A stretch of DNA of 64,000 bases from Sideroxydans sp. (GTDB taxonomy: Bacteria > Pseudomonadota > Gammaproteobacteria > Burkholderiales > Gallionellaceae): positions 1-64,000 of the forward strand of contig JARCRQ010000030.1 of NCBI GenBank assembly GCA_029850585.1, given 5' to 3'. Positions 537 to 38,726 of the stretch are shown piece after piece. The notes under the pieces are model-generated. The model saw only the letters and a list, made by a program, of their open reading frames with translations, was not told the DNA's origin and did not search any database. The stretch's first letter is position 1. Every line of letters starts with the position of its first letter. The position numbers and the translations under genes were made by a program.

Positions 537-586
537 GAAACTGAGCCTATTGATTGGAAACTGACCCTATTGATTGCTATTGATTG
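537..586. repeat. Tandem direct repeat GAAACTGA(G/C)CCTATTGATTG x2 plus a half unit; possible IS terminal remnant
   Basis: 20-bp unit at 537-556 and 557-576 with one mismatch, then CTATTGATTG at 577-586. Confidence 0.75.
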
Positions 587-593
587 GGTGATT

Positions 594-1001
594 TTACGAA
601 GGGCGGTCTATATTGCCTTGGATTGCCTGTGAACGAATACGAGCACCGACGGTAGCCTCGATAACTTTTTCACGGAGAGTTTCGACTTTATCTTGCTTTG
701 ATATTGCTATGTCGAGCTTCCTCGCAATTTGATCAACTGACTTTCGTGTAGGGAAATTTGCATTCAAAAATTGCAATGCTTCATTTCGGCTAGAAAAATC
801 AGCAAGTGTTTTTATAATTCCACCCAATTCTGGTTGTTCAATTGGTAATAAATTCTCTACTTTATTTTTCTTTCGGATGAGGCGAATTTCAATACTAAAA
901 GATTCGTCGCTGAGTTTTGAAATGTCGTCCTCGCTTAACTTCTCAATTGCATTAGCAATATTTCGAAAGGCATCGGCAAATTTTTGTTTTTGTTGATTCA
1001 T
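594..1001 (-). CDS. Hypothetical protein, probable partner of the downstream-encoded ParA
   Basis: 135 aa; adjacent and co-oriented with the ParA-like gene. Confidence 0.5.
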   Translation of the reverse strand: MNQQKQKFADAFRNIANAIEKLSEDDISKLSDESFSIEIRLIRKKNKVENLLPIEQPELGGIIKTLADFSSRNEALQFLNANFPTRKSVDQIARKLDIAISKQDKVETLREKVIEATVGARIRSQAIQGNIDRPS

Positions 1002-1011
1002 TTTTTATTTC

Positions 1012-1938
1012 CTACAGCAAAGATTCGAATTCATCTACGAAGCTTTCAATTTCATTTACGACTTCTGAGTGTGTACTATTTGAATAATGATTCAGAACCA
1101 CTGGCATCAAATTTTGCGGAGCATCTGCAAAAATGGTTTTATTTTCACGAAAGTTGGTTGTGAATGTAGCAACTCCAAGACGCTTTGTTTGAGCGATGAA
1201 TTGCCGTTGTGCGGAAATTGGTTGTCCGCTCGTAATTTGAATCATTGTGAAAATTACGCCAAGTATTTTTGGCGAAATATTTTTTGTCTCACCATCTAAC
1301 TCTGCATACTCGTTAAATTCTTTAACGAGTTCGTTAACGCTGCGGTGCAGGTAGTCAATTCCTAGTGTCGAAAGAAAATCAGGTTTTGCGGGAATAAGAA
1401 TTTTCTCGCTTGCGACGATTGCATTTTTGGTCACGATGTTAAAGTTTGGTGGGCAGTCCATCAACACTATGTCGTAGTCGGTGCTATTAGCAAGTGATGC
1501 AATAGCTTCTCTGAGTTTGCCATGTACCTTGATGTAATTTCGTTTTGCTTGTTGCAGATTAACGCCGCCAAGAAGAGTAGCTAATTCTAAATCTACGTTG
1601 ATTAGTCCGAGGTGTGAGCAAATAAGATCAATTCGCCCTCCACGTTTTTGTGAGGTCAAAAAATTATTAACGTTTGTTGGGGTAATAACGAAATCGGTGA
1701 GTGGAGGAGATTCCTTTCCTTCGCCAATTGCATCGAACCAAGATTTAATGGTTAGTGATGTTTTGTAATCGGTATCCCATTTATCAGGGGTAACAAACGA
1801 AAAAGTCAGACTTGCTTGGGCATCAGTGTCAATCAACAACACTTTCTTTCCTCTGTAAGCTAATTCAGCCGCAAGGTTCGCAGTAACCGTGGTTTTACCA
1901 ACTCCACCCTTGTAGTTTATAACAGCGATTATTTCCAT
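1012..1938 (-). CDS. ParA/Soj family ATPase (AAA-like)
   Basis: Deviant Walker A KGGVGKTT at N-terminus, LLIDTDAQASLT, VLMDCPPN. Confidence 0.9.
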   Translation of the reverse strand: MEIIAVINYKGGVGKTTVTANLAAELAYRGKKVLLIDTDAQASLTFSFVTPDKWDTDYKTSLTIKSWFDAIGEGKESPPLTDFVITPTNVNNFLTSQKRGGRIDLICSHLGLINVDLELATLLGGVNLQQAKRNYIKVHGKLREAIASLANSTDYDIVLMDCPPNFNIVTKNAIVASEKILIPAKPDFLSTLGIDYLHRSVNELVKEFNEYAELDGETKNISPKILGVIFTMIQITSGQPISAQRQFIAQTKRLGVATFTTNFRENKTIFADAPQNLMPVVLNHYSNSTHSEVVNEIESFVDEFESLL

Positions 1939-2058
1939 AAATACTCCTTAAAAATTACATAAATTTCGGGATGAGGAGCAGTTTTTGCTTTGTGCCGCTG
2001 TCTCGTCTTGAGAAAAAATTAGGAAGTTCAGCTATGTAGCACTACCCGTTAAAAGAGT

Positions 2059-2268
2059 TTATGCCGCAATCACATCTGGCATGTGATGCAGCACCATCAG
2101 GCTGTTTTCCGGTATTGCACATATAGCGTAGGGATTGCCATCCAAGTCGGAAAACTCAACTTCCACCCCATCGGTTGCGAGCATTTCCACTACCGTTCCA
2201 ACTTGTCCACGGCGCAGATGTTTTTCGGGAATGTCTTTGGTTAAGGCAACGACTTCTAATGTTTTCAT
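2059..2268 (-). CDS. DUF4926-like small protein
   Basis: 69 aa; VVALTKDIPEKHLRRGQVGTVVEML...VEFSDLDG. Confidence 0.6.
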   Translation of the reverse strand: MKTLEVVALTKDIPEKHLRRGQVGTVVEMLATDGVEVEFSDLDGNPYAICAIPENSLMVLHHMPDVIAA

Positions 2269-2278
2269 GCGACACCTC

Positions 2279-2683
2279 TTATTCGATTTCCCAATCTTCC
2301 AGCTTCAAACCCGCGATGCGTGAAAATTCACCCGTGTTATGGGTCACTAATACGCAATCGTTAGCAAGTGCGATGGCGGCGATTTGTAAATCATAGGGGC
2401 CGATGGGTGTGCCTTTTCGCGCTAAGTCGGCGCGGATGTCGCCGAAAATTCGTGCGGCATCCCCATCAAAAGCAAAGCTGTTCAGTTCTGAAAAAAGTGT
2501 TTCTAGCACGGCCAGATTTTCGTTACGCCTCGCGCTTTTGAACGCGCCATAATACAGCTCGGCTTTCACAACATCACACAATGCAATTTGTGAGGGCGCG
2601 CACGCTGACAATTTTGCTTTAACAGCGGAACTGGCTGGGTTGAAGTGACGAATCCAGACGTTGGTATCTGGTAAGTACAGCAT
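2279..2683 (-). CDS. vapC: PIN-domain VapC-type toxin
   Basis: 134 aa; N-terminal LPDTNVWI, internal acidic residues, C-terminal VTHNTGEFSRI. Confidence 0.85.
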   Translation of the reverse strand: MLYLPDTNVWIRHFNPASSAVKAKLSACAPSQIALCDVVKAELYYGAFKSARRNENLAVLETLFSELNSFAFDGDAARIFGDIRADLARKGTPIGPYDLQIAAIALANDCVLVTHNTGEFSRIAGLKLEDWEIE

Positions 2684-2913
2684 TACTTCAATTCCAATCG
2701 TGATTCATATTCGCCTTGCGGTTCGCGCACTAAAAGTTCGCCTTGCCATGCGCCTGATGTTTGCCCCCATAAGTTAGTTTGTGGCCGCCTTACCGTTGTT
2801 TTTTCATCTAGCAAAATTAGCACGCGGAGTGCTTGACCTTCATGCAAATGAAAGGCTTTCGGCACAGCGATTTGCCCGTGTTCAAGTTGCGAGTTAAATT
2901 CGATAGCTTGCAT
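2683..2913 (-). CDS. Antitoxin of the VapC-like toxin
   Basis: 76 aa directly upstream of and overlapping vapC. Confidence 0.6.
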   Translation of the reverse strand: MQAIEFNSQLEHGQIAVPKAFHLHEGQALRVLILLDEKTTVRRPQTNLWGQTSGAWQGELLVREPQGEYESRLELK

Positions 2914-2995
2914 GACGCACTCCTTCCTTGCGATATAACCTCGTTTTTAATTTGCGCAATCTTACAGCAAAGGCAGTTATTTCCTATCGTGATGA

Positions 2996-3030
2996 ACTAA
3001 AAAAAGGCAACCAGTTGGTTGCCTTTTTTC
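2996..3030. terminator. Rho-independent terminator (bidirectional-looking)
   Basis: AAAAAAGGCAACCAGTTGGTTGCCTTTTTT. Confidence 0.8.
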
Positions 3031-3035
3031 GTTTG

Positions 3036-3064
3036 TTACCCTTCGACAAGCTCAGGGCGAACGG
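3036..3064. repeat. Dispersed repeat of the CCTTCGACAAGCTCAGGGCGAACGG type
   Basis: Intergenic; matches a short intergenic repeat common in many bacterial genomes. Confidence 0.6.
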
Positions 3065-3075
3065 TTAGGAAATGT

Positions 3076-3759
3076 TTAGTCTTTTTCGCCGCTAAAAGCC
3101 ATCAGCAGGTTCAACAAATTAACGAAGATGTTGTAGATGTCTAGGTACAAAGTCACGGTTGCCATTAGGTAATTTGTTTCGCCGCCGTGGATGATTTGGC
3201 TGATGTCGAACAGGATGTATGCCGAGAAAATTAGAATCGCAATTGCGGAAATCGCTAATGACAACACGGGTACTTGGAAGAACAGATTTGCTAGTGAGGC
3301 AATCAGCAACATGATGACGCCGATGAACAAAAACTTGCCCATAAAGCTGAAATCTTTTTTGCTCACCGTCGCGTAAGTTGCCAAGCTAAAGAAAATTAAA
3401 CCTGTACCGCCCGCTGCCATGCCGACTAATTGCGCGCCGTTACTGAAATGCAAAGCGTGTTGCAAAATTGGTCCTAAAAACACACCTGCCACGAAGGTGA
3501 AGCCGAACATGGCGGCGATGCCCCATACGCTGTTGCGCAAGCTGCTCACGGCGAACAGCAAGCCCATCATTACCGCGAACATCACCAGCGAGCCGATGAT
3601 GGGGTGCTGCGCCAAAATCGCTAGATTAAGCGACATGCCGATAAATGCGCCGATGACGGTCGGAATCATGGTCAAGCCCAGCATCAGGTAGGTGTTGCGC
3701 AACACTTGATTTTGTTCAGCGGCGAGCGTGCCGATAGTGGTGGGGTTTTGGTATTGCAT
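3076..3759 (-). CDS. Bax inhibitor-1/YccA family membrane protein
   Basis: Multi-TM; likely start at 3759 (MQYQNPTTIGTLAAEQNQVLRNTYLMLGLTMIPTVIGA); DISQIIHGGETNYLMATVTLYLDIYNIFVNLL. Confidence 0.88.
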   Translation of the reverse strand: MQYQNPTTIGTLAAEQNQVLRNTYLMLGLTMIPTVIGAFIGMSLNLAILAQHPIIGSLVMFAVMMGLLFAVSSLRNSVWGIAAMFGFTFVAGVFLGPILQHALHFSNGAQLVGMAAGGTGLIFFSLATYATVSKKDFSFMGKFLFIGVIMLLIASLANLFFQVPVLSLAISAIAILIFSAYILFDISQIIHGGETNYLMATVTLYLDIYNIFVNLLNLLMAFSGEKD

Positions 3760-3854
3760 AGAGTGCCTCCGAAGATAAAATTTATTCAGGATGTTGCTTT
3801 TGTAGCGGGCGTGAGAGTAGCGATAAGACTTAAAAGTTGCAATCGACTTGCAAT

Positions 3855-3894
3855 AAAAAAGGGACACAACGATTAAGTTGTATCCCTTTTTTTT
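3855..3894 (-). terminator. Rho-independent terminator downstream of the tRNA pair
   Basis: AAAAAAGGGACACAACGATTAAGTTGTATCCCTTTTTTTT. Confidence 0.75.
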
Positions 3895-3956
3895 ATCACC
3901 CCATTTCTCGTATAAACACTCATAAAGTATTTATCGTCAAAATGTTGCGATGGTGT

Positions 3957-4033
3957 TGGCGGAGTGGACGGGATTCGAACCCGCGACCCCCGGCGTGACA
4001 GGCCGGTATTCTAACCAACTGAACTACCACTCC
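3957..4033 (-). tRNA. tRNA-Asp (GTC)
   Basis: GGAGTGGTAGTTCAGTTGGTTAGAATACCGGCCTGTCACGCCGGGGGTCGCGGGTTCGAATCCCGTCCACTCCGCCA. Confidence 0.95.
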
Positions 4034-4051
4034 AGTTTGATATTTGCGACT

Positions 4052-4139
4052 TGGCGGAAGCTGTGAGATTCGAACTCACGGACGATTTCTCGTCGGCAGT
4101 TTTCAAGACTGCTGGTTTAAACCACTCACCCAAACTTCC
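4052..4139 (-). tRNA. tRNA-Ser (TGA)
   Basis: GGAAGTTTGGGTGAGTGGTTTAAACCAGCAGTCTTGAAAACTGC...long variable arm...GCTTCCGCCA. Confidence 0.93.
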
Positions 4140-4220
4140 CATTTCGCTTTCCAAAATTTGTTGCCTCGTTTTGGAAGGCGCGCATTATGCATGGAACTGC
4201 GCTTGCTGTCTAGAAAAAAT

Positions 4221-4664
4221 CTATCTTTTTATACAATCTGCCCAATTATTCGGTGTCTCATAGAGACGCACACGTTCTAAACGCAACTGATTGCCATAAG
4301 TATCTTGATAGGCGGGGTTGAGAATATCGAAGGCGATTTTGGCGAGATTTTCGGCGGTAGGGACGACGGGCAAGGTGACAGTCTTGTGGTCGGGCAGAGT
4401 GGCGAGAAAGTCACGCACGGTTTTATCGTTGCGATACACCAAAAAAGCGTGATCCCATTTATCGACTAACTCGGTTTTCGCGATGCGTTTTACATCGGAA
4501 AAATCCATCACCATGCCTTGCGCAGATTCGCCTTCGGTGTCGATAACGTCACCCGACAAAGTAATTTCAATGGCGTAACGATGACCGTGTAAATGCTTGC
4601 ATTGACTGGTGTGATTGGGGATGCGGTGACCTGCATCAAATTCTAGGCGGCGGGTAATTTGCAT
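4221..4664 (-). CDS. queD: 6-carboxy-5,6,7,8-tetrahydropterin synthase
   Basis: FDAGHRIPNHTSQCKHLHGHRYAIEI; PTAENLAKIAFDIL. Confidence 0.93.
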   Translation of the reverse strand: MQITRRLEFDAGHRIPNHTSQCKHLHGHRYAIEITLSGDVIDTEGESAQGMVMDFSDVKRIAKTELVDKWDHAFLVYRNDKTVRDFLATLPDHKTVTLPVVPTAENLAKIAFDILNPAYQDTYGNQLRLERVRLYETPNNWADCIKR

Positions 4665-4694
4665 GGTGGGAGCGGGTAAAAAATTCGGCGCGGA

Positions 4695-6623
4695 TTATAG
4701 CTTGAACGTACGCACGGCATGTTGGAAAGCGCGCAGTTCGGCGTGCTCTTCGCCATAGCGCAACGCGTTATATTGCTCGGCGATGGCGAAGAGTTGGGCG
4801 CGCTGGTGCGGATAGTGGGAGCTAATACGGCTGACGTAATCCAAGGCAGTTTCATGTGTGGCGCGTGGCACGCCAGCACGCGCCATGCGTTTACAAAACT
4901 TCAGCCACGCGGCTTGTACGGGGTCGCGCTCACGCACCCATAAATGCCGCATCAACCACAGCGCAAGTGCTGCGATGACGATGCTCAAGCCCAGCATTAA
5001 CTGGCGCGCCATACTTTCCCAACTCACCTCGGTCATGCCTAAGCGCGTCAATAAAGCATATTGCTTTTCGCTGTTGTAGCCGATCAGCCATTGATTCCAT
5101 TGGTTGGAGACAGCATCTAAATTCATGCGCAAATTGAGCAGCCATTGCGGCGGATTACGCGCCATAAAAGCCAGTGCGGAGTTGTCGAGCAAAGCGGCGG
5201 ATAAATTCTTTTGCACGCGTTCGGGAGCAATCGCAGCGGTGGGGTCAACGCGCACCCAGCCGCTGCCCGCCAGCCACACTTCTGCCCAGGCATGGGCATC
5301 AGATTGACGCACGATGTAGTAGTTGCCGATGGTGTTGTATTCGCCGCCTTGGTAGCCCGTCACTACGCGCGCGGGGATGTTGGCGGCGCGCATTAAATAG
5401 ACGAAGGCGGCGGCGTAGTGTTCGCAGAATCCTTGCCGCGTGCTGAATAAAAATTCATCTATGCCATCGCGCCCTAATAGCGGTGGCTCTAGCGTGTAGG
5501 AAAATTTTTCTTGGTTGAAATAACGCAAGGCGGTGGTGACGATTGCTGCGTCATCGGTGTTGCGTGTGCGCCATGTTGCGGCGAGTTGGCGCGCGCGCGG
5601 ATTGAGTTGCGCGGGCAGCTGCAAGCCCCGCTGGCGTTGCGATTGCAGCTCATCGAGATTGGCGTGATAGCTTAAATTTGAGCGTATGGTGTAGCGCGTG
5701 CGCGCGACGATGCTGTCTTTGCTGAATACTTGAAAATCATCATTCATCAGCGCGTTGGGCGGCAACAGGCTGGGCATATCTAAAGCGTATAGCCACTTTT
5801 TATTGTGCGGCTCTAGCGTCACGCTGTATTCGACAGGCTGCGCGGCATCGCTAAATTGCGCGGGCGAATTAAAGCCACTCGCGCCCGTCGTCCACACCCT
5901 GCCATCAAAATTCCACAACACGGGTCCGCGCCAATACATCTGCTCGCGACGCGGCACGACGCTGGCATAAGTGACGCGAAACGCCACCGCTTCGGACAAG
6001 GTGAGTTTGCTCAAACTGCCTGGCTCCATGCGCTCGGACAAGCCGCTGCTGCTGTACGCGTCTTGCGGCATTCCCCATAGCGGGCCTTGGATGCGCGGGA
6101 ATAACACGAAGGCAATCAGCATTAAGGGCGCGGCTTGCAACAGCATCACACTGGCTAAACGCAGTTGCGGTTGGAAGGCGATTGGCGGAGCTTGAATGCG
6201 CAACCAAGTTGCGACGATGACCAGCAGCGTGCCGCACATCAACGCGGCGGTGGGGATGCTTTGCGAGTAGAAAAAATTAGTGATGATAAGAAAGCACGCC
6301 AGATAAATCACCGCCATCGCGTCGCGCGCACTGCGTACTTCGAGCAGCTTGAGTGCGGCTAATAACACTAACAAAGTCACCCCGACTTCGCGTCCGAACA
6401 GACTATGAAAGTTAATGCCGATAGCGGCGACGCAAGCAATGGTGAGGGGCATCAACAGCCAGCGTGACGGCAGTGGTGCGGCGCGATATGCCAAGTAGCC
6501 GCGCCACAGCAGCAAGGTCGCAGCGAGTGCCGACACCCACAAGGGCAGATGCTCGGCGTGCGGTGCGGAGACTAAAAATAGCGTGAGAATTAAGCTGTAA
6601 ATAGTTGGACGAGTGAGGGTCAT
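4695..6623 (-). CDS. TgpA-like transglutaminase (DUF3488 plus transglutaminase core)
   Basis: N-terminal TM segments; TRQGFCEHYAAAFVYLMRAANIPARVVTGYQGGEYN...DAHAWAEVWL; likely start MTLTRP at 6623. Confidence 0.9.
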   Translation of the reverse strand: MTLTRPTIYSLILTLFLVSAPHAEHLPLWVSALAATLLLWRGYLAYRAAPLPSRWLLMPLTIACVAAIGINFHSLFGREVGVTLLVLLAALKLLEVRSARDAMAVIYLACFLIITNFFYSQSIPTAALMCGTLLVIVATWLRIQAPPIAFQPQLRLASVMLLQAAPLMLIAFVLFPRIQGPLWGMPQDAYSSSGLSERMEPGSLSKLTLSEAVAFRVTYASVVPRREQMYWRGPVLWNFDGRVWTTGASGFNSPAQFSDAAQPVEYSVTLEPHNKKWLYALDMPSLLPPNALMNDDFQVFSKDSIVARTRYTIRSNLSYHANLDELQSQRQRGLQLPAQLNPRARQLAATWRTRNTDDAAIVTTALRYFNQEKFSYTLEPPLLGRDGIDEFLFSTRQGFCEHYAAAFVYLMRAANIPARVVTGYQGGEYNTIGNYYIVRQSDAHAWAEVWLAGSGWVRVDPTAAIAPERVQKNLSAALLDNSALAFMARNPPQWLLNLRMNLDAVSNQWNQWLIGYNSEKQYALLTRLGMTEVSWESMARQLMLGLSIVIAALALWLMRHLWVRERDPVQAAWLKFCKRMARAGVPRATHETALDYVSRISSHYPHQRAQLFAIAEQYNALRYGEEHAELRAFQHAVRTFKL

Positions 6624-31776: not shown

Positions 31777-32815
31777 TTAGCGGCGGATTAAATGTTGTGC
31801 TGCACGGCTTAATGCGGTGGGGGAAATGTCGTTGATGGCAAGGGTTTCGGCTTGATTTAACTGTGGGTAATGCAAACCTTGCGAGCGTGCGTAACCTGGG
31901 TCGTAATGGAGTGCTAATAACTCAGCGACGAGGCTGTGAAAATCTTTAGCGAGAATGAGTGCTTGCCAATGTTCGATGCGTTTTTTGCCATGAAAACTAT
32001 GCAGAACTTGCAGCAGCGCGATGAGTTTTTGTGGGGCGGCGATGAGGTGTTGATAGTCGGCTAACAGCAGCGCGAGACGCGCCTCCATGCTGGTGGCGAG
32101 CAACACGCAAGGCGCGCTGTGCATGGCTTTGTAGAGGCTAGTCGGTAGCGCGAGCTTGCCGATTTTTTTGCTTTCTGCTTCGACATAAATAGGACGAGCG
32201 ACATCAAATTTTTGCAGTGCGAGTAGCAGCTGTGAGTCGAAATTTTTTTGTGCGGGCTGGGCTTGATTCGGTAAGCCACCTAGCACTGAACCGCGATGCT
32301 GCGCCAAGGATTCGAGGTCTAACACTTGCGCGCCATTAGTTGCCAATGCGTCCAATAAACGGCTCTTGCCTGAGCCTGTTGCGCCGCATACCACGCGATA
32401 ATTAAACTGCGCAGGCAAGTTGTCGAGTTGGCTTAACACCTCGCGGCGATAGGCTTTGTAGCCCCCTTCTAATTTATGCGCCGACCAGCCTACCTGCGCC
32501 AAAATGATGCTCATCGCGCCGCTGCCCGCCGCGCCAGCAATAAATTAACGGCTTCAAGTTTTTTTCATAGTCGCAAAAGCGTGTTTCTAAATGATGCGCG
32601 ATATTTTTTGCCACCAGTGCCGCGCCGACTTTGCGCGCTTCAAACGGTGAGACTTGCTTGTATAAAGTGCCGACGACAATGCGTTCCTCGTTGGAAAAAA
32701 CCGGACAGTTAATCGCGCCGGGAATGTGATCTTCGGCGAATTCCGCAGGCGTGCGCACGTCGATGATTGCATCGAAATCGTCTAGCTGTGATAAGTTCGC
32801 GGTTCTGAATAACAT
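31777..32815 (-). pseudogene. selU: tRNA 2-selenouridine synthase, frame-disrupted
   Basis: Rhodanese half ([40 protein letters not shown]...LIYCWRGGQR) and P-loop half (MSIILAQVGWSAHKLEGGYKAYRREVL...GATGSGKSRLLDAL) lie in different frames. Confidence 0.85.
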
Positions 32816-32826
32816 ACGCAGTGGAA

Positions 32827-33845
32827 ATGAAAATGGACGAAGTGAAGTTAACCCGATTGTCGCACGGTGGCGGATGCGGCTGCAAAATCTCTCCAGCTTT
32901 GCTGCAAGAAATTTTGGGCGAGGCGCAAAAGAAATTACCCTTCCCAAATTTATTAGTTGGCACAGAAAGCGCGGATGACGCGGCGGTGTATCGCTTAAAC
33001 GACGAGCAAGCCATCATCGCCACCACCGACTTTTTTATGCCGATAGTCGATGACGCTTTTGACTTCGGACGCATCGCCGCGACCAATGCCATCTCCGATA
33101 TTTACGCGATGGGCGGCACACCCATCATGGCACTCGCCATCGTCGGGATGCCTATCAACAAAATGTCAGTCGAAACGATCCGCGCGATTTTGCAAGGCGG
33201 CGAAGCAGTGTGCTGCGACGCGGGCATTCTCATCGCGGGCGGACATTCCATAGATGCGCCCGAACCCATCTACGGCTTGGTGGCATTGGGCATCGTCCAT
33301 CCCGATCAGGTGAAAAAAATAGCGCGGCACGCGCGGGTGACGTGCTGATTTTGGGCAAAGGATTAGGCGTGGGCATCCTTGCCGCCGCGCTGAAAAAAGA
33401 ATTATTAAGCGATGTGGGTTACGCGCAACTCATCAATACCACCACGCAACTCAACAAAGTCGGCAGTGAGCTAGCCGTGATGCCAACGGTGCACGCGCTC
33501 ACCGACGTGACGGGCTTCGGACTGCTAGGACACTTGCTAGAAATGTGCCGAGGCGCAGGTCTGACAGCGGAAGTCGAGTTCGCCAAAGTACCTGTTTTGT
33601 CCGAGGCTTTGCCGTTGGCACAACAAGGTATAGGTCCAGGCGCAATCGAGCGAAATATGGCGAGCTACGGACACGAGGTGGACTTTGCGGCGGGTGTGGA
33701 AACGTGGCAACAACGCGTGTTAGCCGACGCACAAACCAGTGGCGGCTTGCTGGTGTCAGTCGCACCCGAAGCGGTGGAAGATGTGCTGAAAAAATTTGCT
33801 GATGCTGGGTTTGTAAATGCGGTGGTGATAGGGGCGATGCGGTAG
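32827..33845 (+). pseudogene. selD: Selenide, water dikinase, frame-disrupted
   Basis: [30 protein letters not shown]...HPDQVKK | [27 protein letters not shown] split across two frames at about 33311-33320. Confidence 0.88.
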
Positions 33846-33868: not shown

Positions 33869-34624
33869 CTAACTACAGCGTGCTCGTAAAAATGAAGTTA
33901 TAAGCGAGGGGTGTCCAACTTCTTTAACTTGACTCTGTGCGCGGTATTTCCAGTTTGATTTCGAAAGTGCGTCGTAGTATTCGCTATCTGGAATTGAATT
34001 GCCGTCTACAAACTCTTTGTCGATTAAAAGCCCTTCAGCTGTGAAACGCTGTATTGATGGTCGTAAAGCAATCCTTAATCCACCGTCCGCTAGCTTAGTT
34101 TTAATTTGACCTGCGCATTCAGGGTGCTGCCAATGTTGCCCATTGTCTTTTTGTTTTAATTTCGACTCGCCAGCATGTTGGTTGGACGCATTAAAGATGC
34201 AAGGTGAGTCTGGTGCTTCATCATCTAATTGGGGATCGTTTAGCTCATGCACTTGCTTACTTAAACACAGTAAACAATGTGGTGGATTTTTCCTGGCCAT
34301 AAGCATTTCCAGTGCGTCAATTGCATTGTTACTATCGTCTTCGAGCCTTCCCATCATAGATTTATGGTGTTTAGAAACCCCAAACATACTGCGAGAAAAC
34401 TTACTTAATTCCCGTTGTGCAGCTCGGTAATCTTGCATACGAATTTTCATAGATAAATTTTCGACAGCAACAATGCCGTTGCATGAGGCACACCAGCCAA
34501 TATGCCAGTGCACAGGTATGCGCACGCCACTGTTCAAGACATACTCACGCGTTCCCCAAGTTACCCAATCGCCTTGCTCAAAATCGCAGGCAGTGCAGTA
34601 ATACATCGTTACAGGCCAAGACAT
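33869..34624 (-). CDS. Hypothetical protein with paired Cys motifs (possible zinc binding)
   Basis: 251 aa; YYCTACDF...WCASCNG...CLLCLS. Confidence 0.55.
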   Translation of the reverse strand: MSWPVTMYYCTACDFEQGDWVTWGTREYVLNSGVRIPVHWHIGWCASCNGIVAVENLSMKIRMQDYRAAQRELSKFSRSMFGVSKHHKSMMGRLEDDSNNAIDALEMLMARKNPPHCLLCLSKQVHELNDPQLDDEAPDSPCIFNASNQHAGESKLKQKDNGQHWQHPECAGQIKTKLADGGLRIALRPSIQRFTAEGLLIDKEFVDGNSIPDSEYYDALSKSNWKYRAQSQVKEVGHPSLITSFLRARCS

Positions 34625-34670
34625 TTAAGCTCCTTTTTATGACGCTAATCATGATGAAATCAATTAAATG

Positions 34671-34943
34671 CTACCAACTTCCCCGTTTGGATTCTGGCTT
34701 GCTGTCGTAGGGGTTATAAACGCCGTCTCGGTCATTGTCGCGCGCACCATAACTGCCATTGCTCTTATTGGTTGCACCAGTTCCAGAGCTGTATTCGTCG
34801 CGCTGGTGACCGCCATTAGTTTGCGAATTATAGTTATTGCTGCGTTGCGCATCAGGGCTGCTGCGCGTGTGTCCGCTGACATGGGTGTCAGCAAATGCTG
34901 TGGTGTTGGTGAGGATTGCTGCGAGTATGACTAGGCGTTTCAT
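34671..34943 (-). CDS. Small secreted protein with a DxDxDG-type C-terminal motif
   Basis: Signal peptide MKRLVILAAILTNTTAFA; ARDNDRDGVYNPYDSKP. Confidence 0.55.
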   Translation of the reverse strand: MKRLVILAAILTNTTAFADTHVSGHTRSSPDAQRSNNYNSQTNGGHQRDEYSSGTGATNKSNGSYGARDNDRDGVYNPYDSKPESKRGSW

Positions 34944-34962
34944 GGTGCTTCTCCTTGTTTGG

Positions 34963-35478
34963 TTAGAATGCTTTTTTTGTTACACTGCAAATTCCTTGTT
35001 CGCTTGTATCAACGAATCCCCCAAAAAATATACCGTTTTTCTCTATCATTTTTTGCTCCCATTCTAATTTTTCTTTTTCGCTTAATTTAAGCCCAGAACT
35101 GGCATATTTATAGCGTGTGAATATCTGTATATCACCAGAGTATCTGCTGATAGAGAATACCTCCTCCCTCGAAACCTCCAACGGCGCATTTTGTTCGGAA
35201 TCTGTATTGCTGCTATGCGTGAATCGTATTGATTCACTGCTCCATAATTCTATTGGGCAGGTAATTTTTGAGTTATTACCTCCCCCGCTATCAAAAACTT
35301 TTTTTGATTTCTCATTGATGAGAAAGAATCTTTCTGTAATGCAATGATTTAATGGGCAGAGTCCATCGTTTCGTTGCATCTTGCATTGCAAAATAACATC
35401 CTCTGTTCCCCAACTGTTGGGGATGTAAGCGGTAATAACCAATGCTAATAAGCCAATTTTTGGATAGCTAATGTTCAT
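34963..35478 (-). CDS. Hypothetical secreted protein
   Basis: 171 aa with N-terminal hydrophobic segment. Confidence 0.5.
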   Translation of the reverse strand: MNISYPKIGLLALVITAYIPNSWGTEDVILQCKMQRNDGLCPLNHCITERFFLINEKSKKVFDSGGGNNSKITCPIELWSSESIRFTHSSNTDSEQNAPLEVSREEVFSISRYSGDIQIFTRYKYASSGLKLSEKEKLEWEQKMIEKNGIFFGGFVDTSEQGICSVTKKAF

Positions 35479-35583
35479 CTAAATTTCCTTACTGCCTCAC
35501 GCACCACGCCGATTACTCGTGACTCGTCCAGCGATTTTGTTGATTGCTGCGGGTTAGTCGGTATCAAGACCAAGCAATGATTT

Positions 35584-36186
35584 TTACTTGCTAATAAGTT
35601 CGTGGATTTTATTTCTGACCGCTTGCAGCTCTTTGTTTAACGCTGCTGTGGGGGCAACACTACGTTGAGTAAAAATCTCGCATAGTGTTTGGTAGTACCA
35701 AATTACATCATCACGCTTTGCACTAAAACGCTCAAATACCGACAAACCTGTTTCAACTAAATCTAAATGAATGGCTTGCAGGTTGTTTAACTTATCGCAG
35801 GCAGATACCAGCAACACATCGCTCGACGCATCGACAAGATGCTTCAAATAGCTTTCTTTGCGTTCACGCCATGGGGCTTTTTCTCCCGTTGTGGGATCGG
35901 GTGTGCCGTCAGTGCAGCCTTGTACTATATGCAACACATGCTCACCAAATACAGCGATGCGGCTCGTCCAGTCGATTGCTTTGTCACCATCTTCCAACAC
36001 GTCATGTAGCAACGCGGCAATCGCTTGATCTTCATTGCCGCCGTATCGCACCACCAGTGCTGAAACAGCCACGGGATGGGTGATATATGGGACTGCCATG
36101 CCTGTAGAGTTTTCGGTGCTTTTACGGATTTGCCCTGTATGCGCATCAATTGCCAAGGCTAATGCGAGATTGAACTTAGAAGTCAT
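35584..36186 (-). CDS. HD-domain phosphohydrolase (SpoT/MESH1-like fold)
   Basis: ALAIDAHTGQIRK...PYITHPVAVSALV...QAIAALLHDVLEDGDK. Confidence 0.8.
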   Translation of the reverse strand: MTSKFNLALALAIDAHTGQIRKSTENSTGMAVPYITHPVAVSALVVRYGGNEDQAIAALLHDVLEDGDKAIDWTSRIAVFGEHVLHIVQGCTDGTPDPTTGEKAPWRERKESYLKHLVDASSDVLLVSACDKLNNLQAIHLDLVETGLSVFERFSAKRDDVIWYYQTLCEIFTQRSVAPTAALNKELQAVRNKIHELISK

Positions 36187-36206
36187 TTTAATTCCTTTTT
36201 GGTTGT

Positions 36207-36257
36207 TAGTTGCATCACACCACTAACTATAGTACAGTTAGTGGTGTGATGCAACTA
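36207..36257. promoter_or_regulatory. Long perfect inverted repeat in the divergent HD hydrolase/NrtR-like intergenic region
   Basis: TAGTTGCATCACACCACTAACT-atagtac-AGTTAGTGGTGTGATGCAACTA, 22-bp perfect arms. Confidence 0.9.
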
Positions 36258-36955
36258 TGATTAACGTGATGAAAAAAATTACTCAAAATTCCGATGCAAA
36301 AATATACCCGATGCCTTTCACGCGAATTGAGCTGGTTGTGATGTCAGTGGTCAATGATTGTTTGTCGGTGTTACTTGGTAAGCGCGAACAAGCTCCATAC
36401 GCAGGGCTATGGGCTTTGCCGGGCGGTGTCGTGCGGATTGATTTAGATGCCAATCTGGAAGCGTCGGCGCAGCGTGTGGCACAAGAACGGCTCGCCATTC
36501 AAATGCCTTACTTGCGCCAACAGTGCGCGGTAGGCGGTGTAAGCCGTGACCCTCGTGCGCCATGGGCGGTTAGCATTGTTTATCGTGCATTAAGCCGCGC
36601 TGAAGAATTTAATCCCACTGCAGGCAAGCGGCTAGATGCGCTGCGCTGGTGTCCCGTTGATGAGGCAATGGCAGATAATTATTTAGCCTTTGACCACCAG
36701 CAACTTATTGCACAAGCGGTTGCTGCAACCCGTAGTGAAATTGACCGCCTTGAGTTGCCTTTCGGTTTCTTGCCAGAGCAATTTACACTGGGCGAACTTC
36801 AAACCGCTTGCGAAATTATGCTCGGTCGTCGCTTGGATAAATCCAGCTTTCGGCGGCGCATCGACGAACGAGCATTGATTGAGCCTATTGAAGGCGAAAT
36901 GCGCATTGGCTCTTTTCGACCCGCACAACTTTTTTGTCAAAAAGCGCAAACATAA
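36257..36955 (+). CDS. NrtR-like regulator (degenerate NUDIX domain plus winged-helix C-terminus)
   Basis: VLLGKREQAPYAGLWALPGGVVRIDLDANLEASAQRVAQERL; C-terminal FTLGELQTACEIMLGRRLDKSSFRRRI. Confidence 0.82.
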   Translation: MINVMKKITQNSDAKIYPMPFTRIELVVMSVVNDCLSVLLGKREQAPYAGLWALPGGVVRIDLDANLEASAQRVAQERLAIQMPYLRQQCAVGGVSRDPRAPWAVSIVYRALSRAEEFNPTAGKRLDALRWCPVDEAMADNYLAFDHQQLIAQAVAATRSEIDRLELPFGFLPEQFTLGELQTACEIMLGRRLDKSSFRRRIDERALIEPIEGEMRIGSFRPAQLFCQKAQT

Positions 36956-37009
36956 ATTACGTTCAATAAATAATTTTTTTGAATTGGACTATCTAGCCGT
37001 GAAGTTCAG

Positions 37010-37270
37010 CTAAACATAATTACATAAACGAGGGTTACTAGAATGAATAGCAAGCAAAGCACTACTGAGCTTATCACCGAAGAATCCAGCAAGCCCAAAA
37101 TGTCCCATCAACTCGTGAGCAACAACCTCGCGCACCCGCTCACGGCTAGCGATATTTTCCGCTACGAGGAAGATGTGTTTTTTGAACATCACCCCCGCTG
37201 CATCTTTAGGGGCAGCAAACGGGAGGTCATCGACGAATTCAACAGTGATGATTTCAGGGACACGCGCCAA
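37010..37270 (-). pseudogene. Fragment of a large zincin-like/mobile-element polyvalent protein
   Basis: VREVVAHELMGHFGLAGFFGDKL; only a non-ATG start (TTG) and an open frame extending upstream without a clear start. Confidence 0.5.
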
Positions 37271-37333
37271 ACCTTCGGTCAGCGTGTGCGCATAGCGATT
37301 GATAGATTCTTTACGCGCCGTAGATAACCGATA

Positions 37334-37355
37334 TATCGCTGATATATCAGCGATA
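37334..37355. promoter_or_regulatory. Perfect 22-bp palindrome
   Basis: TATCGCTGATATATCAGCGATA. Confidence 0.75.
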
Positions 37356-37381
37356 GTCGTGCATTTAGCAAGGGAGCTAGT

Positions 37382-37858
37382 TTGAATAACCGCACTGAAC
37401 CAGATTTACTTTATATCGTCGTCTCGAAGCTGGACATTCTGTCTGGCAATATCCAACCCACAATTGATGCCCTTAATTCGCTGACTTCATCACCTGCAAA
37501 TGCCTTGCGCTGGCATGAGCGTGTTGCAGTTGTTTTTGATGGTTATAACGATACGCAGTGGGAGATTTTTGAAATTGCAGAAGCGCGGGATTTTGTCTTT
37601 CAACTTGACGAGCGTTTTCCATTTTGGCTTTATTTTTTATCGAAAGCTCGTTTTGAGCTTCAGTCCATCATGTTGTGTTTTTTGCCGCCGTTTTTGACAC
37701 GAGAAGCAAAGGCTAGAATTTTTCCAGAGAAACTTAAAACGTTAATGGAGGAGCGATGGCTACCCGCGATGACTTTTATGGCTGAGTTTTCGGGTCTGAC
37801 GGAAGCGGAATTTGAGAAAATGACTGAGAGTGTTTTTGAGTATATCGAGATGGAATAA
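37382..37858 (+). CDS. Hypothetical protein (158 aa)
   Basis: VAVVFDGYNDTQWEIFEIAEARDFVFQLDERFPFWLYFLSK; weak resemblance to chlororespiratory-reduction-6-like proteins. Confidence 0.5.
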   Translation: MNNRTEPDLLYIVVSKLDILSGNIQPTIDALNSLTSSPANALRWHERVAVVFDGYNDTQWEIFEIAEARDFVFQLDERFPFWLYFLSKARFELQSIMLCFLPPFLTREAKARIFPEKLKTLMEERWLPAMTFMAEFSGLTEAEFEKMTESVFEYIEME

Positions 37859-38112
37859 TACTGTTTGCCAAAATCCAATTTTTACGTATCACCAGTAAGG
37901 TAGTTTGTCAGAGCGGAAAGTTTCGCAAGCGGGGTGGTGATTGAGGGCTGCTTTTGAGAAACTTGGTGGGTGTTTTCGGTACGAGGACAGACACTACCGA
38001 ATTTTAAGCAAGGATGACACAGCTCGCCTTGCTAACACCCGATACGGAACTTACCTAAATAATATTTTGAAAGCAAGTTTAGATTTGTATATGAATGATT
38101 TTCGTTTGCCAA

Positions 38113-38406
38113 TCACGCCGCCAATCTCAACTCGACCTTTTTTCCCGCCCGCGTTGCCAAAGTAATCAGCATATCCAAGCTGAATTTATCCCACTTGCCG
38201 CGTATCAAATCTGAGACGCGCGATTGAGAAATTCCTAGCACGGCGGCTGCATCTATTTGCGTCCATGCTTCATCGCGGATTTTGATGCGCAGTTCGCCCA
38301 TCAACTGTGAGCGCATCGCAAGGATAGTGGCTTCTTCGGGCGAGAATCCCAAGTCGATAAATACGTTGCCGCACGACTTGGTTATTTTGAGTTTTTCAGT
38401 TTTCAT
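38113..38406 (-). CDS. XRE-family HigA-like antitoxin
   Basis: MKTEKLKITKSCGNVFIDLGFSPEEATILAMRSQLMGELRIKI...TQIDAAAVLGISQSRVSDLIRGKWDKFSLDMLITLATRAG. Confidence 0.88.
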   Translation of the reverse strand: MKTEKLKITKSCGNVFIDLGFSPEEATILAMRSQLMGELRIKIRDEAWTQIDAAAVLGISQSRVSDLIRGKWDKFSLDMLITLATRAGKKVELRLAA

Positions 38407-38726
38407 TTCGCACTCTCCTTGAGTCGCTTGTAACGAGATGCCGCTAGGTCGATGTCTTCTTTGCGCGTTTGCTGGGTTTTCTTTTGAAAAGCGTGTAGCA
38501 CATAAATCGCATCGGCAAATTTTGCGACGTAAAGAATTCGCCATTCGCCCAACACATGAACACGGATTTCGTATGCGCCTGCGCCGACATTGAGCATCGG
38601 CTTCCAATCGGATGGCATCAAGCCTAGCTGAACTTGCCATAGTTCATGCCCTGCTGCTCCTTTTGCTTCTTTGGGAAATTCGGCTAGGTCGTCTTCGCTG
38701 GTGCCTGTGAATATGAGTGGCTTCAT
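38403..38726 (-). CDS. RelE/HigB-like (phage Gp49-like) toxin
   Basis: DDLAEFPKEAKGAAGHELWQVQLGLMPSDWKPMLNVGAGAYEIRVHVLGEWRILYVAKF. Confidence 0.88.
   Translation of the reverse strand: MKPLIFTGTSEDDLAEFPKEAKGAAGHELWQVQLGLMPSDWKPMLNVGAGAYEIRVHVLGEWRILYVAKFADAIYVLHAFQKKTQQTRKEDIDLAASRYKRLKESAK

Follow-up and report, generated by a model that had tools for sequence, protein, structure and literature searches.

The locus examined here raises the question of what a long perfect palindrome does between a regulator gene and a divergent hydrolase gene. The window is a 64-kb stretch of DNA from a genome assembly of 1.97 Mb (101 contigs, 96% complete), and the palindrome, TAGTTGCATCACACCACTAACT-atagtac-AGTTAGTGGTGTGATGCAACTA, is located at positions 36207-36257, with no strand assigned. 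Its 22-bp arms are perfect and flank a 7-bp loop, exactly as an earlier, sequence-only reading had described. It is the longest perfect short-loop inverted repeat of the window, the runner-up having arms of 14 bp, and a search of the genome for the arm with up to 3 mismatches returned a sole extra match, with 3 mismatches, on another contig. The 3' edge of the palindrome, its last base, is the A of the first ATG of the regulator ORF (36257), again in agreement with that reading. The further statement that the palindrome fills the gap between the genes is slightly too strong: the starts of the two ORFs are 70 bp apart, of which it takes up 51, and 20 bp remain before the start of the HD gene (36186). 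A search between the two genes gave no match to a consensus sigma-70 promoter.

The regulator gene (36257-36955, plus strand) encodes a 232-residue protein of the NrtR family. We took ATG 36257 as its start, with ATG 36269 as a possible alternative. The protein combines a NUDIX domain (residues 31-152; 36347-36712, plus strand; PF00293, E 1e-9) with an NrtR winged-helix DNA-binding domain (residues 168-226; 36758-36934, plus strand; PF21906, E 3e-17). Its best solved relatives are SoNrtR from Shewanella oneidensis (3gz5, E 1e-32), matched over almost the full length, and BtAraR (5bs6, E 6e-23). RVAQER stands where an intact Nudix box would have REUXEE, so that E77 is the sole acid of the motif left, and such an impaired motif is a feature of the family: SoNrtR has RKLAEK where the regulator has RVAQER. 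Both the NrtR-like identity and the degenerate box, which had been proposed from the sequence, are thus upheld. In its two domains, its degenerate Nudix box and its autoregulatory position, the protein resembles SoNrtR and MsNrtR of Mycobacterium smegmatis. It scores 162 bits against NF050029, the equivalog model for the ADPR-responsive NtrR group, whose cut-off is 400. Because this score is far under the cut-off, we do not claim orthology to that group, and the ligand may differ from ADP-ribose.

Close relatives of the regulator are concentrated within its order, where at least five other genomes encode proteins of 59-64% identity and the next matches fall to about 43%. The relative at locus L016, from the genome collection, is 60% identical, and at least four more in the family of genome G420 are 52-62% identical. 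In a maximum-likelihood tree of 57 rows, the window's protein and ten others form one clade with support of 100/100, and a four-member group from G420's family is its sister with support of 99/96. Beyond the order, 369 genomes of the class gave one 38%-identical protein at E <= 1e-50, and no relative was found on viral contigs. All counts of conservation across genomes given here are lower bounds.

Comparison with these relatives indicates what the palindrome consists of. It is made up of an imperfect 21-bp NrtR box and an inverted copy of that box, each a predicted docking site. Box 1 (TTAGTTGCATCACACCACTAA, 36206-36226, plus strand) and box 2 (TTAGTGGTGTGATGCAACTAT, 36238-36258, plus strand), the latter overlapping the regulator's first ATG, are separated by an 11-bp spacer (CTATAGTACAG, 36227-36237, no strand assigned). 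A symmetrised motif made from the relatives' loci alone and scanned over the window ranked box 1 first (24.1 bits) and box 2 second (21.6 bits), the third match scoring 14.9. In 50 simulated 64-kb sequences the mean maximum was 12.8 bits, and the top value of 19.2 was reached once. Box 1 differs from TTAGTTGCNNNNNGCAACTAA by 2 mismatches, and the pattern across the clade is roughly TTMGTTGC-N5-GCAACKAA. Two copies of the 21-bp box lie 5' of the regulator at seven other loci (L016, G169, G259, G393, G566, G554 and G563), there between the regulator and a metallophosphoesterase gene, one of the two copies in G566 being poor; G420 has a single perfect box, TTAGTTGCGTAATGCAACTAA. A predicted cognate palindromic box upstream of the regulator's own gene is therefore present in the window as two copies and conserved in the clade, as is characteristic of NrtR regulators. 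The box belongs to the same size class as the palindromic box of MsNrtR, GTTTTCGA-N7-TCGAAAAC, which spans 23 bp (PMC6800001), and more typical NrtR-type loci, from the same order and from Rhizobium, have TTAGT...ACTAA boxes. The arrangement of the copies differs from that of the typical loci. Box centres are 32 bp apart in the window, in L016 and in G566, 36 bp apart in four clade loci and 43 bp apart in G563, whereas the five more typical NrtR-type loci that we measured have a spacing of 22 bp.

In the window, box 2 is the inverse of box 1 at 20 of 21 positions, and each box is in itself imperfectly palindromic, so that together they give a single long perfect palindrome; one arm may perhaps have been copied from the other. 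The sequence-only reading had proposed an NrtR operator with the core CTAACT-N7-AGTTAG. The NrtR type stands, and the register does not: this core is composed of the inner half-sites of two different boxes, the right one of box 1 and the left one of box 2. We rejected a single operator of this form, as each outer arm is retained in relatives as a box of its own. Perfect 22-bp arms could also form a strong hairpin, and the palindrome might then work as an RNA hairpin, an attenuator or a cruciform and not as protein sites. We regard this as very improbable. The box copies of relatives are complementary at only 9-16 of 21 positions, against 20 of 21 in the window, so a long hairpin is not the conserved feature; box spacing in relatives ranges over 31-43 bp, and a terminator-like site was not found.

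The gene on the other side of the boxes (35584-36186, minus strand), divergent from the regulator, encodes a 200-residue HD protein of the small alarmone hydrolase (SAH) type with an HD_4 domain (PF13328). Its best solved relative is PDB 7qoe (E 2e-33), with 7qoc also matched (E 1.5e-19) and other RelA/SpoT-type hydrolases ranking after 7qoe, and the prediction of a SpoT/MESH1-like partner held. The protein keeps the HD, ED and D...N motifs, and so has the stand-alone HD_4 domain with intact metal and catalytic residues that marks the orphan SAHs and MESH1 (XccSAH, 7qoe, 7qoc). The window's protein differs from XccSAH in being paired with an NrtR-type regulator; the portions of PMC9765508 drawn on here report no linked transcription regulator for XccSAH. 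The predicted target also sets the locus apart from the NrtR family, whose members control NAD-metabolism genes: as had been claimed, the divergent gene is an HD hydrolase and not a NAD-biosynthesis gene. We considered a NAD-biosynthesis regulon and rejected it, the window's nadC having no box among the top 15 motif matches. A genome-wide regulon was likewise set aside, since the box pattern at 3 mismatches gave 13 sites versus 8 for a reversed-pattern control; we claim no further target.

The sequence-only reading had made conservation of the pair elsewhere its own check. The exact divergent NrtR/HD pair occurs in no other genome searched: it is absent around the HD homologues of 399 genomes of the order and in the plasmid HD neighbourhoods that we read, and among clade loci only the window has the HD gene in the divergent slot. 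At least seven clade loci have in its place a calcineurin-like phosphoesterase gene (PF00149), whose nearest NCBIfam models are the phosphatase part of bacterial Pnkp, PrpE and ApaH; elsewhere in the window's genome, the phosphoesterase has just a weak 45-residue match, on contig C93. HD proteins do recur at clade loci in other arrangements. In G420 a different HD_4 protein is encoded 3' of the regulator gene, on the strand of that gene; G259 encodes a third HD protein, whose start overlaps the phosphoesterase stop and whose score of 26.5 bits is just under the HD_4 cut-off of 27.2. A frame in G169 and G393 begins like the G259 HD protein and then departs, and is perhaps an HD remnant.

These observations bear on whether the HD gene lies there by chance, the boxes then serving the autoregulation of the regulator alone. 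The single occurrence of the divergent pair would fit such a reading, as would the setting of the order's other HD homologues, which do not lie beside an NrtR regulator: the closest found, in G238 (64% identity), has a WYL-domain regulator as its divergent neighbour, and two others are near a SIR2 gene (one confirmed with Pfam). The mosaic look of the surrounding block (33.9-38.7 kb), with a G+C content of 0.45 versus 0.53 and 0.51, points the same way. Against it, the HD start lies just 20 bp from box 1, and no HD gene was found within about 1.5 kb of the other NrtR loci examined. The window's genome, G420 and G259 each encode two HD_4 proteins of RelA/SpoT length and one small one, and that small protein is in each case at the regulator locus, in three different arrangements. 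With 2000-4000 genes per genome, this threefold coincidence is unlikely to be due to chance, a judgement that applies to related clade members in a sample that was not pre-registered. We consider a chance neighbour improbable.

The preferred reading is that an NrtR-family repressor acts on the two boxes, responds to a NAD-derived ligand and controls both itself and the SAH-type HD gene; we assign it a probability of roughly 0.7. Family membership, paired boxes, clade conservation and a recurrent HD or calcineurin-like partner are read from sequence comparison; repression, ligand and substrate are inferred. Dimers of the regulator would bind the two 21-bp boxes between the genes, box 1 lying 20 bp from the HD start and box 2 over the regulator's own first ATG, and would thereby shut off both divergent genes. 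A NAD-derived nucleotide, with ADP-ribose as the first candidate, would enter the Nudix-like pocket and release the regulator, as in NrtR. MsNrtR is a repressor released by ADP-ribose (PMC6800001), and SoNrtR is likewise so described in PMC4666351; one NrtR protein responds to NAD. The HD enzyme, once freed from repression, may strip phosphate or pyrophosphate from NADP(H), ADP-ribose phosphate, or (p)ppGpp/(p)ppApp. Alarmone and NADP(H) roles are both conceivable because the orphan SAH XccSAH hydrolyses (pp)pGpp, pppApp and NADPH (PMC9765508). Counting against the preferred reading are the single sighting of the divergent pair, the missing sigma-70 consensus promoter between the genes, the NF050029 score far under the cut-off, and the lack in the genome of an ADP-ribosylglycohydrolase (ARG) gene to supply free ADP-ribose.

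The ligand could instead be an alarmone. The same repressor and boxes would then serve a regulator that senses (p)ppGpp, pppApp or a relative, and the HD protein would be an ordinary SAH that lowers it. The ranking of an SAH as the HD protein's best solved relative, ahead of RelA/SpoT-type hydrolases, is in keeping with this, as are the efficiency of XccSAH, about 1000-fold greater on alarmones than on NADPH (PMC9765508), and the three different alarmone-type HD proteins across clade loci. Within the clade, nevertheless, the partner met most often is an ApaH/PrpE-like phosphoesterase, which is no alarmone enzyme, and studied NrtR regulators sense ADP-ribose or NAD and AraR sugars (PMC6800001; PMC4666351). 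Alarmone sensing therefore seems rather unlikely to us. A further reading can be put forward only tentatively: an NrtR-type nucleotide sensor might directly control an alarmone/NADPH hydrolase, and the two genes would then form a feedback unit through which (p)ppGpp or NADP(H) levels follow the NAD/ADP-ribose state of the cell, with no need of ADP-ribosylation machinery. If true, a single small locus would tie sensing of NAD-derived nucleotides to the removal of alarmones or NADPH, and would bridge two stress circuits that are mostly studied separately.

The composition of the locus has a precedent in prediction. Section 3.8 of PMC9503650 predicts ARG-centred systems against ADP-ribosylation, in which Nudix-HTH or WYL negative regulators alternate, with coupled phosphatases, among them calcineurin-like and alarmone-type HD proteins, and with TY-Chap chaperones. 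The window's Nudix-HTH regulator and alarmone-type HD phosphatase correspond to the regulator and coupled phosphatase of these systems, and G238 has the WYL counterpart with an HD protein. In the sister clade, the G598 locus has a phosphoesterase and an ARG, and the G257 locus has TY-Chap3 and a PTP-type phosphatase. Unlike in the ARG-centred systems, neither a chaperone nor a PTP-type phosphatase was noted next to the window's pair, and the core ARG gene (PF03747) has no match in the window's genome (96% complete) or in nine other clade genomes searched, several of them incomplete and that of L016 left out. With parts in common and ARG absent, the pair is a variant of a predicted system, and the suggestion that it might be undescribed went too far. 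We regard the locus as a pared-down relative of the ARG-centred ADP-ribose systems, in which the regulator and phosphatase persist without ARG. With such a pair, two proteins and a single short DNA probe would be enough to address the ligand directly.

Several other loci were noted during these searches. In Vibrio casei plasmid 1 (L119, 1098-4868), a ring nuclease annotated as Csm6, an ADP-ribosylglycohydrolase and a clade-type metallophosphoesterase form an apparent operon. In Marinobacter nauticus pMAQU02 (L116, 1795-4427), a clade-type metallophosphoesterase has a WYL-domain regulator two genes away. Double-HD proteins with a SIR2 gene downstream are encoded at L129 (genome G433, 566-5321) and L127 (G185), and a PTP-type phosphatase lies upstream of the one in G433.

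The surroundings of the pair in the window were also read. The block at 33869-38726 contains small, mainly unknown genes, has a G+C content of 0.45 compared with 0.53 and 0.51 in its flanks, and may be an acquired island. Within it, the product of 37382-37858 (plus strand) weakly matches the model for the CRR6 NdhI maturation factor (NF038024, E 2e-4, 21 versus 125 bits), and 38116-38726 (minus strand) encodes a HigBA-type toxin-antitoxin pair consisting of a Gp49-like protein (PF05973) and its HTH_37 partner. Next to the block, selD (32821-33845, plus strand) and the adjoining tRNA 2-selenouridine synthase gene mnmH (31777-32947, minus strand) are each split into two overlapping frames, which suggests a frameshift, or an assembly error, in both genes of this one pathway.
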